This document shows, one piece after another, positions 27,451-38,384 of a DNA stretch of 64,000 nt. The position numbers were made by a program, and so were the translations under genes. Location: positions 1-64,000 of the forward strand of contig JACRBH010000168.1 in the NCBI GenBank assembly GCA_016234535.1, given 5' to 3'. Position 1 is the first letter of the stretch. Each line of letters starts with the position of its first letter. Below the pieces are notes generated by a model. That model searched no databases and was not told the DNA's origin. It saw only the letters and a list, made by a program, of their open reading frames with translations. Source of the DNA: Chloroflexota bacterium. Lineage in GTDB: Bacteria; Chloroflexota; Anaerolineae; Anaerolineales; Villigracilaceae.

Positions 27451-28749
27451 ATGACCAATTCGCGCATCTCTGGATTTTACAACCTGACTCTCGAAGAACG
27501 CCGCATCAAACTAGCCAAAGCTGCGGATCGGACTCCCGAAGACCTGCTCCCGTTTACTACAGGCGGACTCTCCACTGAATCAGCCGACCATATGATCGAA
27601 AATGTGATTGGCATGTATGCGCTCCCAATGGGCATCGGCCTGAACTTCATGGTCAACGGGCGCGATGTGCTGGTTCCCTTCGTGGTGGAGGAACCGTCTG
27701 TTGTGGCGGGCGCATCCTTTATGGCAAAACTCGCCCGCGCTGGCGGCGGATTCACAGCCACCACCACCGAGCCGTTGATGATCGGACAAATGCAGTTGAT
27801 CAACGTGGTCAACATGAATGAAGCGCGGCTGAAAATATTTGAACACAAAGCGGAGCTGCTCGAAATTGCCGACGCGATTGACCCGATCCTGAAAAAATTT
27901 GGCGGCGGCGCGCGTGACTTGGAAGTGCGCATGATCGAAGAATCCGCCATTGGGCCGTTCATCGTCATTCATCTCATCTATGATGTGCGCGACGCGATGG
28001 GCGCGAACGCGGTCAATACAGCTTGTGAGAAACTCGCCCCTCGCATCGAAGAGATCACGGGCGGAAAAGTTCACTTGAAGATATTGTCCAATCTTGCAGA
28101 CAGAAGAATTGCCCGTGTGCGCTGTACCATCCCCGTCAGCGAGTTGACTGTGGGATTTGAATCCTTCAAAGGCGAGACTGTGCGCGATGGCATTATCGCC
28201 GCGTATGCTTTCGCCGCAGCCGACCCGTACCGCGCCGCCACCCACAACAAAGGAATCATGAACGGCGTGGACTCGGTCGTCATCGCCACAGGCAATGACT
28301 GGCGCGCCATCGAAGCAGGCGCACATGCTTATGCGGCTCGTTCTGGCAAATATACTTCCCTCTCCACTTGGGGCAAAGACAAGGACGGCAACCTCGTCGG
28401 CACGCTGGAAATGCCGATGGCGGTCGGAATCGTTGGCGGGGCGACCAAAGTCCACCCGGCGGCCCAAGCCGCAGTTAAGTTAATGAACGTAAAGACCGCC
28501 TCCGAATTGGCAGAGATCATCGTCTCGGTCGGCCTCGCTCAAAACATGGCCGCCCTGCGCGCGCTCGCCACCGAAGGTATCCAACGCGGACACATGTCTC
28601 TGCACGCGAGGCAGGTCGCTATTGCCGCAGGCGCATCTGGCGAGTTAATCGAGAAGGTCGCCGCGCAAATGGTGGCGGAGAAGGTTGTGCGTGTGGATCG
28701 AGCGGAAGAGATTTTGGGAATGTATGCAGGGAAACAGGGAAACAAGTAG
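27451..28749 (+). CDS. mvaA: Class II hydroxymethylglutaryl-CoA reductase
   Basis: This 432-aa enzyme reduces HMG-CoA to mevalonate, or runs the reverse reaction, in the cytoplasm. The ENVIG-type segment (ENVIGMYALPMGIG), the catalytic Glu in VEEPSVVAGAS (~residue 80), the catalytic Lys in HNKGIMNG, the Asp in ATGNDWRA and the C-terminal His in RGHMSLHARQ are all present. The EEPSVVAGAS form and the short length are typical of class II bacterial enzymes. It heads a plus-strand group with HMG-CoA synthase and a thiolase-like protein, so biosynthesis of mevalonate for isoprenoids is the likely direction. The last codons (GKQGNK) are encoded by the octamer repeat. Confidence 0.95.
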   Translation: MTNSRISGFYNLTLEERRIKLAKAADRTPEDLLPFTTGGLSTESADHMIENVIGMYALPMGIGLNFMVNGRDVLVPFVVEEPSVVAGASFMAKLARAGGGFTATTTEPLMIGQMQLINVVNMNEARLKIFEHKAELLEIADAIDPILKKFGGGARDLEVRMIEESAIGPFIVIHLIYDVRDAMGANAVNTACEKLAPRIEEITGGKVHLKILSNLADRRIARVRCTIPVSELTVGFESFKGETVRDGIIAAYAFAAADPYRAATHNKGIMNGVDSVVIATGNDWRAIEAGAHAYAARSGKYTSLSTWGKDKDGNLVGTLEMPMAVGIVGGATKVHPAAQAAVKLMNVKTASELAEIIVSVGLAQNMAALRALATEGIQRGHMSLHARQVAIAAGASGELIEKVAAQMVAEKVVRVDRAEEILGMYAGKQGNK

Positions 28750-28762: not shown

Positions 28763-29062
28763 GAAAAGAAAAAAACACTCACCTCGGAAGAAATTTCTGC
28801 CATTGTGGATCGTATAGCAGATGAATTTGCGTCTGAGGATAAGGCAGAAATTAAAATAATAGCAACACTACCGCCAAATGCACGTTGGCTTGTCGGCATT
28901 CGCAAAGCCGAAGCGATTCGCGCTGACCTTCGCAACAAGCTTGTGCGGGATTTTCCCGAACTTTCAATGCCTGAAATCAACATGAAGATTTTGAGGTCAT
29001 TGACGCCTGTGAGAATAGGAAAGAGTTATACCGAGCCAGCCTATCAAGACCATTTTGGATAA
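28760..29062 (+). CDS. Uncharacterised 100-aa protein in the mevalonate group
   Basis: The ATG at 28760 follows the octamer repeat directly, 10 bases after the mvaA stop; the longer ORF begins inside mvaA. The protein is charged and mostly helical (LTSEEISAIVDRIADEFASE), followed by a strand-rich end (EIKIIATLPPNARWLVG). It is not the Zn-binding DUF35 protein that joins thiolase and HMG-CoA synthase in archaea, as it has no cysteines. I recognise no family. No clear Shine-Dalgarno is present, so translation may be coupled to mvaA. Confidence 0.55.
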   Translation: MEKKKTLTSEEISAIVDRIADEFASEDKAEIKIIATLPPNARWLVGIRKAEAIRADLRNKLVRDFPELSMPEINMKILRSLTPVRIGKSYTEPAYQDHFG

Positions 29063-29091
29063 ATACAGCATCGGTGCGGGATAAATCCCTC

Positions 29092-29158
29092 CCTCAGTTC
29101 ATGGAAGTCGGCTAAAGCCGACTCGCCCAACAGCCCGAAGGGCTTCCACGTACTGAGG
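29092..29158. repeat. Palindromic repeat with CCTCAGT arms
   Basis: CCTCAGTtcaTGGAAG at the left pairs with CTTCCAcgtACTGAGG at the right. Inside are GTCGGCT/AGCCGAC and AGCCC/GGGCT stems. It occupies most of the gap between the two small hypothetical genes. Confidence 0.75.
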
Positions 29159-29213
29159 CAGGACTTTAGTCCGCCGAGCAAGATGTGGAATGCAACAATA
29201 GAAAAACTTAGCT

Positions 29214-29534
29214 ATGGAATCTAAAATTCTTAAACTTACTAATATCCTTGAAGAAATAGCGTCTTTGCTTGAGGCTTATAACCAGCAGAATTGGCAAGAG
29301 GCTGTAACAGCAATAAAATTAAGACTTCAAGATTCGGATACCTCTGCCTTAAAAGACTACCTTGGCTATTTTCGCGGAATGGGTTCATTAAATGATATAA
29401 CGTTCTACGACACAACCAAAGATGGAAAGCGTCTTTTCAACAAGAATAATAGTCAAAAGTATTATTCCCTTAGTTCGCGTTCATTTTCTCTCGCAAAAGA
29501 AATAAAGCAATCTATAGAAAAAGGTTCTAAATGA
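29214..29534 (+). CDS. Uncharacterised 106-aa protein, AT-rich
   Basis: This small soluble protein begins [15 protein letters not shown] and is helical for the first 50 residues; the middle has [16 protein letters not shown]. No domain is recognised with confidence; it recalls small immunity-like or DUF proteins found singly in genomes. It overlaps the HMG-CoA synthase start by four bases (ATGA), so it is probably translated. Its base composition is clearly richer in A and T than the genes around it, suggesting transfer into the mevalonate operon. Confidence 0.6.
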
Positions 29535-30613
29535 CAACCCCTCACACTCACAACTCCCCCACCCTCCTCAAACCCATCAAACCTGTTGGCATTGTCGGCT
29601 ACGGCGCGTATGTGCCGCGCTACCGCCTGCCCGCCAAAGAAGTCGCGCGCGTATGGACAGGCAAGACCAGCGGACTTCCCATCAAAGAGAAAGCTGTGCC
29701 CGGCCTCGATGAAGATGTGATCACCATGTCCATCGAAGCGGCGCGCAACGCCATGCTCCGCGCGCAAATTGACCCGACAGAATTGCGGGCGGTTTGGGTC
29801 GGGTCAGAGTCGCATCCGTATGCGGTCAAGCCAACATCCACGTTGGTCGCTGAAGCGATTGGCGCAGTCCCCAACACGCAAGCCGCAGATTGGGAATTCG
29901 CCTGTAAAGCGGGCACTGAAGCTCTCGTCGCCGCAATGGGCTTGGTCGGCTCGGGCATGGGACATTACGCGATGGCCATCGGCATGGACACCGCGCAAGG
30001 CAAACCCGGCGACGCGCTCGAATACACCGCGGGCGCGGGCGGCGGCGCGTACATCATCGGTCCCGCCGAAGAGTCGCTGGCGGTCATCAACGCCTCGTAT
30101 TCCTACGTCACCGACACGCCCGATTTCTGGCGGCGCGAATATCAAAAATATCCCGAGCACGGAATGCGCTTCACGGGCGAGCCAGCCTACTTCAAGCACA
30201 TCACCGAAGCCGCCACGCATTTGATGGAAGCATCAGGCACAACCGCCAAAGATTACAAGTGGGCCATCTTCCATCAGCCGAACACAAAATTTCCGCAGCG
30301 TGTCGCAGGTCAACTCGGATTTTCCGCGGAACAAATTGCACCGGGACTTCTAGTCCACACGATTGGGAATACTTACGCGGGCGCAGCCATGATCGGCCTG
30401 ACCGCGACTCTCGACATCGCCCAGCCCGGTGACAGAATCCTCGTCGTCTCTTTCGGGTCGGGAGCTGGCTCAGACGCCTTTGACATTCTCGTCACTGACA
30501 AAGTCACCGCCCGCCAGGGTCTCGCCACGAAGACACAGGAATACATCGCGCGCCGTACAGAAATAGATTACGCAACCTATGTCAGGTATCGCGGCAAGTT
30601 GGCGATGAAATAG
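29531..30613 (+). CDS. Hydroxymethylglutaryl-CoA synthase, archaeal type
   Basis: This 360-aa thiolase-fold enzyme condenses acetyl-CoA with acetoacetyl-CoA. The catalytic Cys125 lies in [12 protein letters not shown], the His in [10 protein letters not shown], and the general-base Glu region is [12 protein letters not shown]. The sequence ([30 protein letters not shown]) is of the archaeal group rather than the Firmicutes MvaS group. In archaea this enzyme is held in a complex with a thiolase and a DUF35 protein; the thiolase-like gene follows here, but no DUF35 gene is in the window. The start overlaps the preceding gene as ATGA. Confidence 0.94.
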
Positions 30614-30620
30614 AAATTTC

Positions 30621-30715
30621 CGTCATTGCGAGGAGGGCTTCAGCCCGGCGAAGCAATCTCGCTCGTTGAGTTGGAGATTGCTTCGGGCAAAGGACAGAGC
30701 GCCCTCGCAATGACG
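30621..30715. repeat. Palindromic repeat, family R1 (copy e)
   Basis: It runs from CGTCATTGCGAGGAGGGC to GCGCCCTCGCAATGACG, lying between the HMG-CoA synthase and thiolase-like genes, 14 bases before the latter's ATG. Confidence 0.88.
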
Positions 30716-30729
30716 AACAAGGACAACAC

Positions 30730-31890
30730 ATGACAGAAGTCGTTATCGCAGGTATCGGACAAACACAAGTCGGCGAACATTGGGAGATCAGTTTACGCGA
30801 TCTCGCTCTCGACGCCATTCAAGCCGCGCACAAAGATTCGGGCGGGTTGAAACCGCAGGCATTATTCGTCGGCAATATGCTCGCGCCGAATCTTTCAGGG
30901 CAGGCGCACCTCGGCGCGCTCATCGCGGATTATGCCGGGCTGACGGGCATCGAAGCCGTCACTGTTGAAGCGGCGGGCGCATCCGGCGGGGCGGCGCTCC
31001 GTCAGGGTTACCTCGCAGTTGCCAGCGGCATGGTCGATGCGGCGCTCGTCGTCGGCATTGAAAAGTTTACAGACAAAATCGGCGCAATGGTTGATGAAGC
31101 GCTTGCCACTACATCGGATTCGGATTTTGAAGCCGTGCAGGGATTGAATCCCACCGCCCAGGCCGCGCTGTTGATGAGGCGTTACATGCACGAGAACAAC
31201 GTCCCCGCCGATGGGTTTGCTGGTTTCGCACTCACCGCGCACATGAACGGCGTTGCAAATAAGAATGCCATGTTTAGAAAAGCGATCAAGCCTGAGACGT
31301 ACCACAAAGCAGATATGGTCAGCGATCCGATCAATATGTTCGATGTTGCCCCGAATGCGGACGGCGCTGCCGCGCTCGTTCTGACTCGCCGCGACCTGCT
31401 CCCGTCCGATTATAAAAATCCACTCGTGAAGATTGCCGGCTCCGCCGCATCCTCAGACACATTGGCATTGCACGACAGAAAAGATATTTTGTACTTTGAC
31501 ACCGCGCAAATTTCCGCGGGCAAAGCTATGAAACAAGCGGGAATCATTTTGGATCAAATCAGCTTCTTCGAATATCATGATGCATTCAGCATTTTCGCCG
31601 CGCTATCTTTGGAAGCGGTCGGGTTTGCGATTAAAGGCAAAGGCTGGAAACTTGCCGCAGAAAATGAAATCAGCTTGAAAGGTAAGATTCCCTGCGCCAC
31701 GATGGGCGGCATGAAAGCGCGCGGATTCCCCGGCGGCGCTGCGGGTGTGTATCAAGCCGTCGAAGCAGTCACCCAGTTACGAGGTCAGGCGGGAGCGAAC
31801 CAGATTGCAAATGCAAAGTTTGGACTCATCCAATCCCTCGGCGGGCCGGCATCCACGGCGGTCAGTCATATTTTGCAGAGGATGGATTAA
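30730..31890 (+). CDS. Thiolase-like protein lacking catalytic Cys and GHP His
   Basis: This 386-aa protein is of the archaeal/SCP2-thiolase type, beginning VVIAGIGQTQVGEHW. The nucleophile motif, normally (G/N)ACASG, reads EAAGASGGAALR here, so the Cys is Gly83. The C-terminal GHPxGATG motif reads GFPGGAAG with Phe333 in place of His. The EYHDAF His is kept and the frame is intact. Known thiolases need Cys and His for acyl transfer and Claisen condensation, so activity as acetoacetyl-CoA thiolase is doubtful. It may be a structural partner of the HMG-CoA synthase, in the way the archaeal thiolase shares a complex with that enzyme. A canonical thiolase should then exist elsewhere. Confidence 0.88.
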   Translation: MTEVVIAGIGQTQVGEHWEISLRDLALDAIQAAHKDSGGLKPQALFVGNMLAPNLSGQAHLGALIADYAGLTGIEAVTVEAAGASGGAALRQGYLAVASGMVDAALVVGIEKFTDKIGAMVDEALATTSDSDFEAVQGLNPTAQAALLMRRYMHENNVPADGFAGFALTAHMNGVANKNAMFRKAIKPETYHKADMVSDPINMFDVAPNADGAAALVLTRRDLLPSDYKNPLVKIAGSAASSDTLALHDRKDILYFDTAQISAGKAMKQAGIILDQISFFEYHDAFSIFAALSLEAVGFAIKGKGWKLAAENEISLKGKIPCATMGGMKARGFPGGAAGVYQAVEAVTQLRGQAGANQIANAKFGLIQSLGGPASTAVSHILQRMD

Positions 31891-31894
31891 GATG

Positions 31895-31948
31895 GACGGT
31901 GGACCGTAGACGGTAACCAACGGTCTATCGTCCACCGTCTACGGTCTT
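31895..31948. repeat. GACGGTGGACCGT palindrome (family R3)
   Basis: GACGGTGGACcGTAGACgGT mirrors ACgGTCTAtCGTCCACCGTC across a short loop. The right half forms the last codons (KTVDGGR) and stop of the heparinase-family gene. A related copy is inside folC at 56289-56339. Confidence 0.75.
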
Positions 31949-34096
31949 AAGATTGATTTCCAAAGAATTGACTTGCAACACTTCTCCCCTCAACTCAACC
32001 TGATCTTCTCCAGACCCAAAGAACGTCCAGAAGACGGTATGAGATTGATCTGTTTCAAGCATGACAGAAATGGCTGGCTCTTTGTGACCATAATATTTTG
32101 AACGCCAGCCGCGCATGCTGTTCGGGTCGGCGCGGACAATCGAAAGTTCCTGCTTCCCACTCAATACGCCTGTTTGAAATTTACACATGCTCGATTCATA
32201 TTTGAGGTGAATTGAATTTTTATTTTCTTCAAAAGGCGCATCATTCAACAACCAATGAAGTGAATAATGATGCGGCTCGTTCGCATCCAGATGGTCAACA
32301 ACCAGCCAGCGGTCACCATCGAGCGCCATGACAGTCCGCTTGTGTGTGACAGGTTTATACCCGTTATGCTCACCCTGCCAGAGCCTGTCAGTTTGTTGAA
32401 GAACTTTTCCCTTTGACCAATCCGTCCACACAAAGCGGCTGATCATCTTCATTTGATCCCTGGAATCAACAATCACTGTATTATGCGCGGAGGTGTGCGC
32501 CAGCCCGTTGCGCCAGATGCCTTTGCCGCTGTATAAGTAAGTCCCTGCATCAGAGGCGATGTTGATTCCATTAAGCCACAGGTCAACGTGGAGTTGATCC
32601 GCGTGGGACGGGCGCTCCTGGAAATCGGTACAGCGGATGACGGCCTTGCTGTTTGTGTTGCGGAGGATGTACATTCCGCCCTTGGGAAATGAGTCACCGC
32701 GAAGCACGCGAATGTCGCCAAGTTTCTTTCCTATTTCTTCTTTCTTCATGCTCCCTACAGTGCTACATAACCAAAACACATCCTCATCCCACGCCCCTGA
32801 CTCAAACATGCGCTCGCCTTTGGTGATGACAGAACCTAGCTGCAGCAGCGGACGGTAATCAGTGAAGTCACAATTATTTAACGGCAACACCAACGCGCCG
32901 TCGTTTGAGCCGTAGACGGGCATTTGTCCTGTTTGCGGGTCGATGAGTTTTGAGAGGTATTGGATGGAGTTCGCGATGGATTTTTGTAGTTGGGTGGAAA
33001 GTGGGAAGTGGTTTATGTCTCCAAGTCGCATTGCATACAAATAGATATGAAGAACAAAGCGATGGTAGTTGAGCGAGTACATCGAATAACTGCCATCGGA
33101 GAAAATTTGTTTTACGGCTTCCTGTTCGAGTAGTTCACGGCCTGTGGAGAAATATTTTTCAGAATCTTTCAATTCAGGAAAAAGCAGTCCCACCATCCAT
33201 AAGCCGAAGGCCTCACTGATGGTGTGATTGCTGCGCGTGGAAATGGCGTAGTCAATATTCTTGTAGATTCGCTCGGCCTGGGCGGCGACGTAAGCGGTAA
33301 ATTGGGCAATTTGTAATTGGGTCGTGGATGGAGAATTGATAAATGCGTAAAAGCCGAATGTCCACGCCATAAGACGCAGGGCGATCTCCTGTCCGTCCTT
33401 CCAGTTCGCGCCTGTGTTGGGTGGGTTATGTTCCGCCCAATCCGAAATCAAGTTCCAGAAGGCTTCGGCATATTTTTCATCTTTGGCGGCGGCGTAGGCG
33501 CGGACGAGGGTGTAGATAAATGCAAATCGATTCGGCTCCCAGATGAATTTGATGTCCACTTCAGTTTGAAAATGTCTTTGCGAGGCGGGCACTTGCTCTT
33601 CCCGCCGAAGCAATCCCCTACTATTAGTGGGAGACCGCTTCGGCAAAAACCAAGAGCGCCTCGCAGCGACATTATCATCGGAGATTTGCGACCAATGCTT
33701 GCTTGAATCCAGTTTGATTCCTGAAACAGGGTCTTTGTGCCAATCGGGGGGAAAACCTGTTTTCTGGAATTCATGCGCGAAATATTTTATTTCACCGTTG
33801 AGGATGCGGTTTGCTTCGCTGATGGCGGGATCGCGGAATTCAGGGCGGGGGGACCCCGCCCCTACGTGGAAGAATTGAGGGGAATTTTGTTTGCGCCAAT
33901 TTGCGTATGACTCGGGCTGGGATGGAATATTTTTCTTCAACCACGTTTCAAGCGGACGATCTGTCCATTTGCAGATTGGCGTCTGCAAGCGGATGATGCC
34001 GGTGCGGAGGCGAAATGCATAAGCGAAACGAAATGTCAACCAACGCAGACCAAGCTGACGGTAGAGCGAAGCGAGTGTTCGGAACCTAGTCAACAT
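31925..34096 (-). CDS. Heparinase II/III family protein carrying repeat-derived inserts
   Basis: This 723-aa protein has the layout of heparinase II/III and alginate-lyase-like enzymes: an N-terminal alpha-toroid (to ~residue 420) and a C-terminal beta-sandwich with PSHADQLHVDLWLNG, the usual His/Tyr region. No signal peptide is evident, so it may modify polysaccharide in the cytoplasm or its start may differ. Residues ~142-176 (WFLPKRSPTNSRGLL region) are encoded by an R1 palindrome, residues ~77-87 (VGAGSPRPEF) by a GC palindrome, and the C-terminal KTVDGGR by an R3 element. The frame is open through all three. It overlaps the WecA-like gene by 11 bases. Activity with these inserts is uncertain. 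Confidence 0.82.
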   Translation of the reverse strand: MLTRFRTLASLYRQLGLRWLTFRFAYAFRLRTGIIRLQTPICKWTDRPLETWLKKNIPSQPESYANWRKQNSPQFFHVGAGSPRPEFRDPAISEANRILNGEIKYFAHEFQKTGFPPDWHKDPVSGIKLDSSKHWSQISDDNVAARRSWFLPKRSPTNSRGLLRREEQVPASQRHFQTEVDIKFIWEPNRFAFIYTLVRAYAAAKDEKYAEAFWNLISDWAEHNPPNTGANWKDGQEIALRLMAWTFGFYAFINSPSTTQLQIAQFTAYVAAQAERIYKNIDYAISTRSNHTISEAFGLWMVGLLFPELKDSEKYFSTGRELLEQEAVKQIFSDGSYSMYSLNYHRFVLHIYLYAMRLGDINHFPLSTQLQKSIANSIQYLSKLIDPQTGQMPVYGSNDGALVLPLNNCDFTDYRPLLQLGSVITKGERMFESGAWDEDVFWLCSTVGSMKKEEIGKKLGDIRVLRGDSFPKGGMYILRNTNSKAVIRCTDFQERPSHADQLHVDLWLNGINIASDAGTYLYSGKGIWRNGLAHTSAHNTVIVDSRDQMKMISRFVWTDWSKGKVLQQTDRLWQGEHNGYKPVTHKRTVMALDGDRWLVVDHLDANEPHHYSLHWLLNDAPFEENKNSIHLKYESSMCKFQTGVLSGKQELSIVRADPNSMRGWRSKYYGHKEPAISVMLETDQSHTVFWTFFGSGEDQVELRGEVLQVNSLEINLKTVDGGR
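33572..33672. repeat. Palindromic repeat, family R1 (copy f), inside a gene
   Basis: It begins ATGTCTTTGCGAGGCGGG and ends GCGCCTCGCAGCGACAT, with inner CGAAGCAATC and GACCGCTTCGG arms. It lies wholly inside the heparinase-family coding region without breaking the frame. Confidence 0.85.
33838..33866. repeat. GC palindrome inside the heparinase-family gene
   Basis: CAGGGCGGGGGGACCCCGCCCCTACG matches the palindrome at 14287-14311 in reverse. It encodes GAGSPRP in the host protein. Confidence 0.7.
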
Positions 34097-35108
34097 TCTT
34101 TAATTTGGAAGCGTGACGGGACAGGAAAATCCAAATAAGCGGTAATCCCAAAAAGATGAACGGTGCTGCGATCTGATGTCCGCGCGCCCACACATACGAA
34201 AGAAATCCTGCGAACAAAGTTAATAGGATGTACAGGGAGCTGACTGTTGAGTGTTTATAACCGCCAATCACCAATCGCTGAAATAAATGGGAACGATGTG
34301 CTGAAAAAATCTTCTCACCTTTGAACAGGCGGTGGAGGAAGGTTAAACCCGCATCCATGATGAAGGACCACAAGAGGAGTGTGCCGAGCATCAATGCGTC
34401 ACCGCCTTTCTCAGCGGAGAGCAGCGGCAGAACCGCGAAACTATAACCAAGAAATGTACTGGCAACGTCGCCCATGAAAATTTTCGCGGGCGACCAGTTG
34501 TGCCCAAGAAAACCCAAACTGCCTGCGGCAATCGAGAGTGCGATCCAAAACACAAACGAGTTTCCCCAATGGCCGCTTGCATAGGTAAGAGACATCCAGC
34601 CAAGTCCCGCAGCTAATGCAACACCGCCTGCGATGCCGTCGATGCCATCCATGAAATTATAAGCATTCGTTAATCCAACGATCCACAAAAACGTAATTAC
34701 GATTCCAAAGACACCGAGTTGAAGTTCACCAAACATGGGAATCGTGACGGCCTTGAAATATCCCATGCCAATGATGGAAACCACAGCGATAATTCCCTGC
34801 ACCGCAAAGCGAATTTTTGGCGAAAGTGATTTGACATCATCCCACCAACCCATCCATGCGACGACACTGCCGCATACGATATAGATCAATCTGCGGCTTA
34901 CATCCGTTTCATTCGCAGACACCAAGGCCGTTCCCAAAACAATGACAACAATCGCCAACCCGCCGCCGCGCGGGATGGGAGCGGAATGCATACTGCGGTC
35001 ATTGGGATGATCGAGCAATTGGCCTTTGACCACCCAGCAGCGAATCAAATAGACGAGGACGCAGGAAAGGATGGTGAGAAGGATGAAGATGATGATGATT
35101 TGATTCAT
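34086..35108 (-). CDS. Polyprenyl-phosphate N-acetylhexosamine-1-phosphate transferase (WecA/TagO type)
   Basis: This 340-aa membrane enzyme has about ten helices and would start a cell-wall glycan or exopolysaccharide by moving a sugar-1-phosphate to undecaprenyl phosphate. Family motifs are DHPNDRSMHSAPIPRGGG near the N-terminus, NAYNFMDGIDGIAGG in the catalytic loop, IFMGDVASTFLG, and the HRSHLFQRL basic loop near the C-terminus. These loops fit WecA/TagO rather than MraY. It lies in a minus-strand cluster with an epimerase, a glycosyltransferase and a heparinase-family gene. The sugar is most likely GlcNAc-1-P or a derivative, from family knowledge. Confidence 0.92.
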   Translation of the reverse strand: MNQIIIIFILLTILSCVLVYLIRCWVVKGQLLDHPNDRSMHSAPIPRGGGLAIVVIVLGTALVSANETDVSRRLIYIVCGSVVAWMGWWDDVKSLSPKIRFAVQGIIAVVSIIGMGYFKAVTIPMFGELQLGVFGIVITFLWIVGLTNAYNFMDGIDGIAGGVALAAGLGWMSLTYASGHWGNSFVFWIALSIAAGSLGFLGHNWSPAKIFMGDVASTFLGYSFAVLPLLSAEKGGDALMLGTLLLWSFIMDAGLTFLHRLFKGEKIFSAHRSHLFQRLVIGGYKHSTVSSLYILLTLFAGFLSYVWARGHQIAAPFIFLGLPLIWIFLSRHASKLKNVD

Positions 35109-35187
35109 TGAAATTATTGTAAGCGAGATTTTCGCTTCGCGCTTAATATGGAAGTTGATTCTGTTTCGACGGACATTACGCTCATCC

Positions 35188-35225
35188 CGTAGCCGCCCGA
35201 CGATAAACCGTCGGGCTATTCGTAC
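35188..35225. repeat. GTAGCCGCCCGACG hairpin repeat
   Basis: GCCCGACG and CGTCGGGC form an 8-bp stem around ATAAAC, flanked by imperfect GTAGC/GTACG ends. It lies in the 139-bp gap between the epimerase and WecA-like genes. There is no T-run. Confidence 0.6.
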
Positions 35226-35247
35226 AAAGCCCGCTCAAGCGGACTAC

Positions 35248-36105
35248 TCAAAACTTCAACTCAAGTTTTATCCCATCTTCAAATGAATGAGGTTGATAAT
35301 TGAAATCCCTTTGCGCCTCTTCATAAGAAAAATCCTTGTTCTCATTCAAACGCAAGACCTGTTCAGATTTGATGGGGAACGGAATATGAATCCGCTCGAA
35401 TAACCTTAGCATATTCACCACAGGCGCAGACGGCACATGGATTTTCCAGACGCGCTTGTTCATTTGCTTTGCAATCGTATCAATGACCTGATTATATGTG
35501 AGCGGATGTTTGCCAGCAATGTTGTAGCTGTTACGGATCGTTTTGTCAGAAACCAAACAACCCAAGATAGCTTGCGCCACGTCATCCACATAGATGGGCT
35601 GCTGCAAATAATTCCCGTCACCGAAGACGGGAAAGAACGGCAAAATACGAAGCCATCGAATCAAACGGCAAATGTTGCGGTCACGGTCGCTGCCGTAGAT
35701 CATGGTGGGACGCAGGATGGTGTAATCAAGTCCGCTGGTTTGGATGGCGTCCTCGGCGGCAATACGAACTGTTTTGCTGCCCGCGTTTAATTGAGTGAAG
35801 ATGGCTGTTGTGCTGACGAAGACCGCGCGCTGAATCCCCGCATCCAATGCGGCGCGGATGATGGAGTCCGCGTGGCCGAAGCCGAGTGAGGCGATGTTGA
35901 CAAGAGCATCTGTCCCGCGCATCGAAGCGGATAATGCTTGAGCCTCAGAGACATCCCCTAACGCCCACTCAATTTTCGGCTGAGTCAGAAGCGAGCGGTT
36001 ACTCGTCGCGCGATAGAGACAGCGGACTTCAAATCCATTTTGCAATAATAAGGGGATGACGCGCGAGCCTGTAAATCCCGTTGCGCCTGTGACGAATATT
36101 TTCAT
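35248..36105 (-). CDS. NAD-dependent epimerase/dehydratase (extended SDR)
   Basis: This 285-aa sugar-nucleotide type enzyme has the Rossmann glycine motif TGATGFTGSRV at the N-terminus and a YxxxK-equivalent region read as DYTILRPTMIYG. That is the arrangement of atypical or NmrA-like extended SDRs, in which the catalytic Tyr/Lys pair is lost. I start it at the ATG at 36105 (MKIFVTGATG); the track's GTG start adds five residues. It sits between WecA-like and glycosyltransferase genes and probably alters a nucleotide sugar or lipid-linked sugar. The substrate is unknown. Confidence 0.82.
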   Translation of the reverse strand: MKIFVTGATGFTGSRVIPLLLQNGFEVRCLYRATSNRSLLTQPKIEWALGDVSEAQALSASMRGTDALVNIASLGFGHADSIIRAALDAGIQRAVFVSTTAIFTQLNAGSKTVRIAAEDAIQTSGLDYTILRPTMIYGSDRDRNICRLIRWLRILPFFPVFGDGNYLQQPIYVDDVAQAILGCLVSDKTIRNSYNIAGKHPLTYNQVIDTIAKQMNKRVWKIHVPSAPVVNMLRLFERIHIPFPIKSEQVLRLNENKDFSYEEAQRDFNYQPHSFEDGIKLELKF

Positions 36106-36114
36106 AAAAGATTC

Positions 36115-36170
36115 AACCACAAAGGAAAACCGTCTAAACCTTTGTGACTCTTTGTGCTCCTTTGTGGTTT
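36115..36170. repeat. AACCACAAAGG...CCTTTGTGGTTT inverted repeat (family R2)
   Basis: AACCACAAAGG at the left is mirrored by CCTTTGTG-ACTCTTTGTG-CTCCTTTGTGGTTT at the right, a tandem of TTTGTG blocks. It fills the gap between the epimerase and glycosyltransferase genes. Confidence 0.7.
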
Positions 36171-37392
36171 ATAGTTTTTTAACCAGTGATTCAAGCAAAC
36201 CGAGGGTTTCATTTAATTTATCACGGCGGTCAAGATTCTTGACCAGATACGCGCGCGCATTCAATCCCACTTGCTTTACGCGCTGCGGCGCATTCGAAAG
36301 ATCGAGAATTGTTTCTGCAAGCTGCTCATCATTGCCAGGTTGAACGAATAGGCCTCCGTCGGAAGATTCGATCACATCACGCACGACACCGTCAATCACC
36401 AGAACAGTCCCGCGCGCGGCGGCCATGTAATCAAAGACTTTGTTTGGGTATGTGGTGCGAAACATGGGAACATCCTGAAGAATCGCAAGGCATACATCCG
36501 ATGAAGCGATCACGAGCGGCATTTCCTTTTTAGGGCAAACGCCCGCAAAAATAACATTCGATAAATTCATGCGCTTTGATTCGGATTCAAGGCGCGCGCG
36601 TTCCTTGCCATCGCCAAAAAGCACAAAGCGGATTTTCGAAACTTCGTTCAATCTTTCCGCCGCGCGCAAAATGGTGTCAATATCGTTGGCCTGCCCAAGC
36701 GCGCCCGCATACAGCACAACGAATTTATTTTCCAATCCAAATTTGTTGCGGATGGACGAACCGTCCACATCAGGGTTGAACATATCCACATCTGTGCCGT
36801 AGGGAATATAAGTTATCTTATTTTCAGGCACGTCTTTGCCAAGCATGTATTCCTTATACGCGGGTGAATTAACAAGAATGTGCGTAGCACGCGCATACAA
36901 AAAATTTTCGAGCCAGCGCGCGAGTGCGATGACAATCGGATTTTTCAACACGCCCATACTCACACCGAACTCAGGCCACAGGTCGCGCACTTCCAGCAAA
37001 AACGGTTTGCGCCGAATCAACGCCACGACCCAGGCAGACACTGCTTGAAAAATCGGCGGCGTCGTGCCCATGATGATGTCGGCATCTTTTACTGTCAGCG
37101 CAGTCCATACCGAACTGAACATAAAACTAAAAAACGAAATGACGCGCCAGAAATAACTGCGATGTAATGCAGGAAAAATATAGGAGCGCAAAATTCTCAC
37201 GCCGCCAATTATTTGCTCTGCGAATAACCCAGTCCGCGCCACCGTGCGCTGTCCCGTTTGATAGTTCAAGTCACTGGCAACAATCACCAGTTCATGTCCG
37301 CGACTGCGTAAAAATTGCGCCATCTCAAAATGGCGCGTATGCCCCGGCTCATCTGGTGAGACGAAGGCCTGATTGATCAACAAAATTTTCAT
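36169..37392 (-). CDS. Glycosyltransferase family 4 (WcaI/WbuB-like)
   Basis: This 407-aa GT-B enzyme is of the type that builds surface polysaccharide. The N-terminal domain starts MKILLINQAFVSPDEPGHTRHFEMA, a donor-site region reads FVVLYAGALGQANDID, and the EX7E-like region is near SSDVCLAILQDVPMFRTTYPNKVFDYMAA. It belongs to the WbuB/WcaI-like group that often transfers uncommon amino sugars. The start at 37392 is preferred over the GTG at 37410, which overlaps the PAP2 stop. Cytoplasmic or membrane-associated. Part of the minus-strand polysaccharide cluster. Confidence 0.9.
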   Translation of the reverse strand: MKILLINQAFVSPDEPGHTRHFEMAQFLRSRGHELVIVASDLNYQTGQRTVARTGLFAEQIIGGVRILRSYIFPALHRSYFWRVISFFSFMFSSVWTALTVKDADIIMGTTPPIFQAVSAWVVALIRRKPFLLEVRDLWPEFGVSMGVLKNPIVIALARWLENFLYARATHILVNSPAYKEYMLGKDVPENKITYIPYGTDVDMFNPDVDGSSIRNKFGLENKFVVLYAGALGQANDIDTILRAAERLNEVSKIRFVLFGDGKERARLESESKRMNLSNVIFAGVCPKKEMPLVIASSDVCLAILQDVPMFRTTYPNKVFDYMAAARGTVLVIDGVVRDVIESSDGGLFVQPGNDEQLAETILDLSNAPQRVKQVGLNARAYLVKNLDRRDKLNETLGLLESLVKKL

Positions 37393-37406
37393 GAACGAAT
37401 TTCGAA

Positions 37407-38384
37407 TCACTCCGCAAGCTTAAACTTCTTGAAGACCCACGGCGCACCGCCCGCCACCCAAAAACCGATCAGCGAATAACGCACAAATCTCAGCGCATAA
37501 GAAATGAGATCATCATTACGCGGGAATATCTGACCAAGTCCCATATAAAGGATGAGGACTCCGACCAGGCCGATGACGTAACGAATGGCGCGCTTCTGAA
37601 TCGGACCTGCGGCCTGATACCCGCCGATGGACATGATCCACGCCGCGCCAGCCGCCAGCCCGAATAAGATCCCAGCCGAGGTGAAGGTACTGTCTGGGTT
37701 AACCGGGGCAGGCACTTCGGCGTTCGCCTGAGCCGCGTTATTGATCCACGCCTCAGGGACTTGAAAGCCGCTTCTTAAAGATGTCGCGCCAAATCCCAGC
37801 AGGATAAAAAGCATTGACACGATGAATGCGATCGTGATCTGTTGGCTGAGAGTCTTTGGGCCAACCCATGCAGCAATCGGGTCCCAGAAACGCAAAAAGG
37901 CCCATAACAACGCGGCGCCCAACAGCCATCCAAAGACAACATCATGCGGAAAATGCGCGGCCAGAAAGATGCGCGAGAAGCCGATCAGGAATATCAGTAC
38001 GATTGCAGTGACCCACACCCAGGTACGCTTGTAATAAGCGGCGATCATCCCCCAGATACTGATCGCGTTTTGCGCGTGACCGGATGGGATGCCAAAGGTT
38101 GTCTCGGTTGTCCAAAGCGCCCGCACATGTGAACTCGCCCAATAGGGGCGCGGCCCGGCAAATACTAATTTGAAAATATTATTGAACAAATTACTTGTTA
38201 CAAGAATTACCCCCACCCGCAAACCAAGAGCAGAATCAATGCTCCAGTAGATCAGCGGCAATACAAGTAAAAAGAATTCCTCGTTGCCAAGGAAGCTAAA
38301 AAAACGCATGGGGGCAATTAACCAGTCCCCCGCGCCTTGAAGTGTGATAATAAGAGAAATACCGAAATCAATCAGTGCCTGCAT
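37407..38384 (-). CDS. PAP2 family phosphatase, multi-pass
   Basis: This 325-aa integral membrane protein has the three PAP2 signature motifs: KLVFAGPRPYW, GIPSGHAQN and SRIFLAAHFPHDV. These enzymes remove phosphate from lipid phosphates such as undecaprenyl pyrophosphate or phosphatidic acid at the outer face of the membrane. About nine helices are predicted, with an extra C-terminal membrane part after residue 200. The start at 38384 (MQALIDFGI) has GGAGG seven bases upstream. Beside the polysaccharide genes, recycling of the undecaprenyl carrier is a natural guess but is unproved. Confidence 0.92.
   Translation of the reverse strand: MQALIDFGISLIITLQGAGDWLIAPMRFFSFLGNEEFFLLVLPLIYWSIDSALGLRVGVILVTSNLFNNIFKLVFAGPRPYWASSHVRALWTTETTFGIPSGHAQNAISIWGMIAAYYKRTWVWVTAIVLIFLIGFSRIFLAAHFPHDVVFGWLLGAALLWAFLRFWDPIAAWVGPKTLSQQITIAFIVSMLFILLGFGATSLRSGFQVPEAWINNAAQANAEVPAPVNPDSTFTSAGILFGLAAGAAWIMSIGGYQAAGPIQKRAIRYVIGLVGVLILYMGLGQIFPRNDDLISYALRFVRYSLIGFWVAGGAPWVFKKFKLAE

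Follow-up and report, generated by a model that had tools for sequence, protein, structure and literature searches.

The direct coupling of an unfavourable thiolase step to HMG-CoA synthase (HMGCS) is the rationale of the archaeal complex that these two enzymes form with a DUF35 protein. According to PMC6392133, the CoA-binding interface of this complex has residues of all three proteins. The same three-part architecture is found in PhlABC (PpATase), a Friedel-Crafts acylase of Pseudomonas protegens in which one subunit is without catalytic residues; the HMGCS-like PhlA, in which the Cys is replaced by Gly115 and the Glu is also gone, is presumed to be required for assembly (PMC6392133), and the thiolase-like PhlC is active. 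The thiolase fold is also used without a nucleophile Cys (Gly in CtSal) by the steroid aldolases CtSal/Shy and TcLtp2/ChsH2, which pair with a DUF35 partner (PMC12329534), possess a catalytic Tyr (YDCY/YDHF) and have a role in steroid degradation. ST0096 of Sulfolobus tokodaii (4YZO) is an archaeal thiolase-like protein that likewise has no Cys at the place of the nucleophile (Ser in the alignment). No description of a degenerate thiolase linked to HMGCS was found in the open-access library searched; PMC13001223 cites a 2024 paper on Ca. Promineifilum breve, of the Chloroflexota, and its archaeal mevalonate pathway.

The locus described here lies in a 64,000-nucleotide stretch of DNA from a Chloroflexota bacterium of the class Anaerolineae, the whole of which is referred to as the window. 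It carries a cluster of mevalonate genes (Table 1), the HMGCS of which is of the same family as that of the Methanothermococcus thermolithotrophicus complex (6ESQ, 6ET9). The HMGCS catalytic motifs (GSESHP, EFACKAG, FHQPN, and GNTYAG) are intact in the window and conserved in all relatives, and the gene is linked to that of the thiolase-like protein. Two small genes stand between the HMG-CoA reductase (HMGR) gene and the HMGCS gene (28763-29534), one with a DUF6966 match and one without a family match. The spacer between HMGCS and the thiolase gene contains an imperfect inverted-repeat-like stretch (30620-30720; attgcgagg ... cctcgcaat) resembling an interspersed element, and a glycan-type gene block lies 3' of the thiolase gene (31925-37410). 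A block of this type also follows the thiolase gene at a related locus (L177:3842-11464), and in some relatives it parts the thiolase gene from that of DUF35. Mevalonate kinase family matches were present in all 21 relatives checked, and matches to DXR of the MEP pathway were obtained in 11 of them, these being weak (22-29 bits) and nearly all partial.

Table 1. Mevalonate genes of the window and codons of interest in the thiolase-like gene.
Feature	Position	Strand	Basis
Class II HMG-CoA reductase (TIGR00532), the cluster's first mevalonate gene	27451..28749	+	PF00368 384 bits, TIGR00532 432 bits
Archaeal-type HMG-CoA synthase (HMGCS)	29531..30613	+	TIGR00748 534 bits; best PDB match 6esq_I 438 bits
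Probable pseudo-thiolase gene, SCP2/archaeal-type fold; nucleophile Cys and GHP His absent	30730..31890	+	Profiles, alignment, AlphaFold2/Foldseek
Codon 83, GGC: Gly replacing the nucleophile Cys	30976..30978	+	Alignment to 7yvy, 6esq (EAACASG)
Codon 283, CAT: retained His of HDAF	31576..31578	+	Alignment
Codon 322, TGC: sole Cys of the protein	31693..31695	+	Alignment
Codon 333, TTC: Phe replacing the GHP/GHA His	31726..31728	+	Alignment to 7yvy, 6esq

The thiolase-like gene is an open frame of 386 codons with an ATG start, and its product gives matches above cut-off to PF22691 (Thiolase_C_1) and PF00108 (Thiolase_N). An AlphaFold2 model of the protein was obtained with a mean pLDDT of 93.5 and a pTM of 0.94, and Foldseek aligned it at a TM of 0.94 with 6et9_C, the thiolase chain in the structure of the archaeal complex with HMGCS, so that both profile and fold place it in the thiolase superfamily. 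The sequence-only reading had proposed that this gene lost two catalytic residues, the Cys nucleophile and the His of GHP, while frame and fold remained intact, and the codons and the alignment to 7yvy and 6esq agree with it on both residues. Among the motifs of an active SCP2/archaeal-type acetoacetyl-CoA thiolase, HDxF is present (EYHDAF, residues 281-286), whereas (E/N)xACASG is without its Cys and GHP without its His. The closest solved sequence, Pyrococcus furiosus PFC_04095 (7YVY; 45-46% identity), differs in having canonical EAACASG and GHPVGATG, and the M. thermolithotrophicus thiolase (35-36% identity) also keeps both residues. ST0096 (27-28% identity) differs from the window protein in that its GHP motif is kept.

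The same losses are widespread in the phylum. In a sample of 251 Chloroflexota genomes, 53 carry an archaeal-type HMGCS of the window kind, and all 53 also have a thiolase of the window family. The two genes are on the same contig, at most ~2.5 kb apart, in 52 of them, the exception being G352, where a partial HMGCS match is on a different contig from the thiolase. A direct reading of the operon thiolase's active site in all 53 genomes showed it to be degenerate in 45 and intact in eight (G299, G315, G260, G153, G244, G291, G338, and G199). A contig scan yielded 80 relatives, mostly from Anaerolineales, in which the Cys is absent wherever the position is covered, except at four loci (L117, L118, L121, and L123). 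Position 83 is never Cys among 92 degenerate homologues linked to HMGCS (Gly in 85, Asp in five, Glu in one, Gln in one), and position 333 is mostly Phe (70/92; otherwise Asn in 11, Asp in six, His in three, and Tyr in two). The His of HDAF persists in most members of the window protein's near clade, and several relatives have another residue there. Two stand-alone thiolase homologues (L147, L148) have Thr for the Cys and keep both His; the operon thiolase is intact in both of these genomes.

A maximum-likelihood tree inferred from 56 proteins placed the degenerate operon thiolases, 33 in number, all on one side of a single branch (UFBoot 100, SH-aLRT 93), and intact operon thiolases and stand-alone canonical paralogues fell outside this clade. 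Two sequences, L149 and L009, were excluded from this tree as long branches. A quick tree of 67 rows gave the same grouping (SH-aLRT 93), and L149 was placed within the degenerate clade. The clade includes Anaerolineae and, judging from family make-up, probably Chloroflexia as a second part of the phylum. Partial sites occur in it, with Asp83 and both His in L125 and L128, and Asp83, His283 and Asn333 in L129 and L134; these partly kept sites would fit a history in which the Cys was lost before the His.

The degenerate thiolases are under purifying selection, with constraint relaxed and not gone. Median dN/dS among close relatives was 0.092 for the thiolase (n=15), 0.057 for HMGCS (n=15), and 0.074 for HMGR (n=13), figures that are rough since dS is near saturation. 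The ratio of thiolase to HMGCS protein distance is 1.0 in intact operons vs. 1.8-1.95 in degenerate ones. Canonical homologues share 95 invariant positions, and 90% or more of degenerate Anaerolineae retain 71 of these, those lost including Cys83, Asn145, His333, Val335, Asn369, and Gly374. The lost positions lie disproportionately often in the active-site loops (11 of 24, vs. 14 of 71 kept positions; Fisher p 0.017), which is only supportive, the loop limits having been set after the alignment was seen. Only two positions, Ala84 and Thr140, are newly invariant across the whole degenerate clade.

Decay of the gene, or a sequencing error at both codons, would have the two missing residues themselves as its only support. 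An error is excluded, given that orthologues in many independent assemblies carry both changes, and a decaying pseudogene is ruled out by these same shared changes together with the open frame, the dN/dS of about 0.09 and the confident model; the probability left to either is practically negligible.

It had also been noted that the window has neither a DUF35 gene nor a second thiolase. This is correct for the 64-kb window only. Elsewhere the genome has three other thiolase/DUF35 pairs, class-I thiolases on contigs C112, C96, and C20, and, on C264, a canonical paralogue that stands alone (AACGSG, HDAF, GHPVGATG; 49% identity to the window protein). In a test of 30 genomes, a class-I thiolase was found above cut-off in all 22 that have a degenerate operon thiolase, and the only three without one (G153, G244, and G338) have an intact operon thiolase. 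Paralogues like that of C264, the motifs of which were read in seven cases, were seen in every one of the 19 sampled Anaerolineales genomes of families f1 and f2 whose operon thiolase is degenerate, and not in any of the eight genomes with an intact operon; as statistics, both of these co-occurrence counts are weakened by shared ancestry. Families f23, f33, f59, and f62, deep branches with a degenerate operon thiolase, gave one match each to the window thiolase family.

A mevalonate-type DUF35 was sought with a profile built from sequences gathered in this analysis. It adjoins the thiolase gene on its 3' side or lies within a few kb of it in many relatives, including nearly all deep branches, with inserted genes between the two in some, and strong matches were obtained in 25 of the 31 genomes of the genus set. 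From this arrangement, it is probable that the three-protein archaeal complex persists; the window's relatives have the same set of genes, HMGCS-thiolase-DUF35, as M. thermolithotrophicus. In the organism's own assembly (84% complete) there was no close match to this DUF35, a difference from the M. thermolithotrophicus system, and the three DUF35 Pfam matches obtained are each beside another thiolase. In the nearest relative (G118), the DUF35 gene is on a different contig from the operon thiolase, C6, directly upstream of a block that is collinear with C264, and C264 starts at precisely this block. The gene is therefore probably missing from the assembly, in a gap, and not from the organism. 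At seven deep-branch mevalonate loci (L140-L146), the DUF35 is without zinc-ribbon cysteines.

Two further thiolase-like genes without the Cys were seen in the organism's own genome. One of these, on contig C205 (L009:4881-6424; ENGPASGAS, GHP kept), stands after fdrA-like and cyclase-like genes and is followed by a DUF35 gene. The other, on contig C194 (L011:5387-7468; EGGGATGG, GHP kept), occurs with DUF35 and adjoins an acyl-CoA carboxylase-like gene.

Taken together, it appears probable that the window protein is a pseudo-thiolase retained as a structural, and possibly CoA-tunnel or regulatory, subunit of the thiolase/HMGCS/DUF35 complex. With neither the nucleophile Cys nor the GHP His left, Claisen condensation would no longer be possible for this subunit, and HMGCS would provide the sole chemistry in the complex, joining acetoacetyl-CoA and acetyl-CoA. 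The acetoacetyl-CoA would be made by another thiolase, here most likely the C264 paralogue and elsewhere class-I thiolases. As the CoA interface of the archaeal complex is built from all three proteins, HMGCS could still depend on the thiolase subunit for the shape of its CoA site. The nearest precedent is PhlABC, in which the roles are apparently swapped, since there the HMGCS-like subunit is dead and the thiolase-like one active, whereas in the window the thiolase-like protein seems dead and HMGCS intact. Some features do not sit easily with a pseudo-thiolase subunit. The HDAF His, a residue for which a pure scaffold would have no need, has been retained by most of the near clade; the near clade also has a new, conserved Cys322; and the DUF35 partner, not found in the organism's own assembly, has its presence deduced from the nearest relative.

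The sequence-only reading had allowed for either a scaffold or another chemistry. The first of these is supported by the retention of the fold and of most invariant positions, the loss of the catalytic residues, the constant co-occurrence with HMGCS and the DUF35 of most relatives; the second fares poorly, there being no plausible new catalytic residue invariant in the degenerate clade. A new reaction carried out by the thiolase fold, for instance a retro-aldol or a Cys322-dependent one, has a parallel in CtSal and TcLtp2, which work without the nucleophile, and Cys322 is absent from canonical homologues. However, the remainder of the degenerate clade has Ile, Leu or Val at this position, the GHP place varies between Phe, Asn, Asp and Tyr, and neither Ala84 nor Thr140 is an obvious catalyst. 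With no candidate catalytic residue in common to the clade, we regard a new chemistry as rather unlikely. An identity as a steroid-type aldolase in particular was rejected, because the place of the expected catalytic Tyr is taken by His283 in the window protein and is variable in the clade (mostly His, else Ser, Thr, Asp, Phe, Tyr, or Cys); the HMGR and HMGCS neighbours point to no aldol substrate, and a role in steroid degradation was not seen for the window protein.

A live active site could also stay in the complex if the degenerate subunit formed heterodimers with the C264-type paralogue, in the manner of the KS/CLF pairs of type II polyketide synthases. The presence of this paralogue in all 19 Anaerolineales genomes mentioned above would agree with such pairing, as would the DUF35 gene of the nearest relative, which is ~5 kb from it, and mixed dimers are possible in Anaerolineales. 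They cannot explain the deep branches, where a single family match leaves no C264-type partner, and partners only 49% identical would be involved; as a general account, heterodimerisation is thus unlikely. That DUF35 is unlinked or was not seen in some genomes, the organism's own included, would suit a protein acting outside the HMGCS complex, for example in CoA-ester binding or sensing, with gene order reflecting shared regulation only. Against this, the thiolase accompanies HMGCS in every sampled genome and DUF35 is directly downstream in deep branches, which makes a role outside the complex very unlikely.

If the pseudo-thiolase is indeed a subunit of this complex, a large clade has kept a thiolase subunit without its chemistry, which would separate the structural role of this subunit from its coupling role and provide natural proteins with which to test on which of these roles HMGCS depends. 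The name "acetyl-CoA acetyltransferase" would be wrong for the degenerate operon genes, and in genomes that carry them the first step of the pathway must be sought elsewhere. On balance, we lean toward an ancient loss of catalysis through which, in most Chloroflexota that use mevalonate, the thiolase would have become an obligate subunit of HMGCS with no catalytic function of its own, and the formation of acetoacetyl-CoA would have been uncoupled from that of HMG-CoA.
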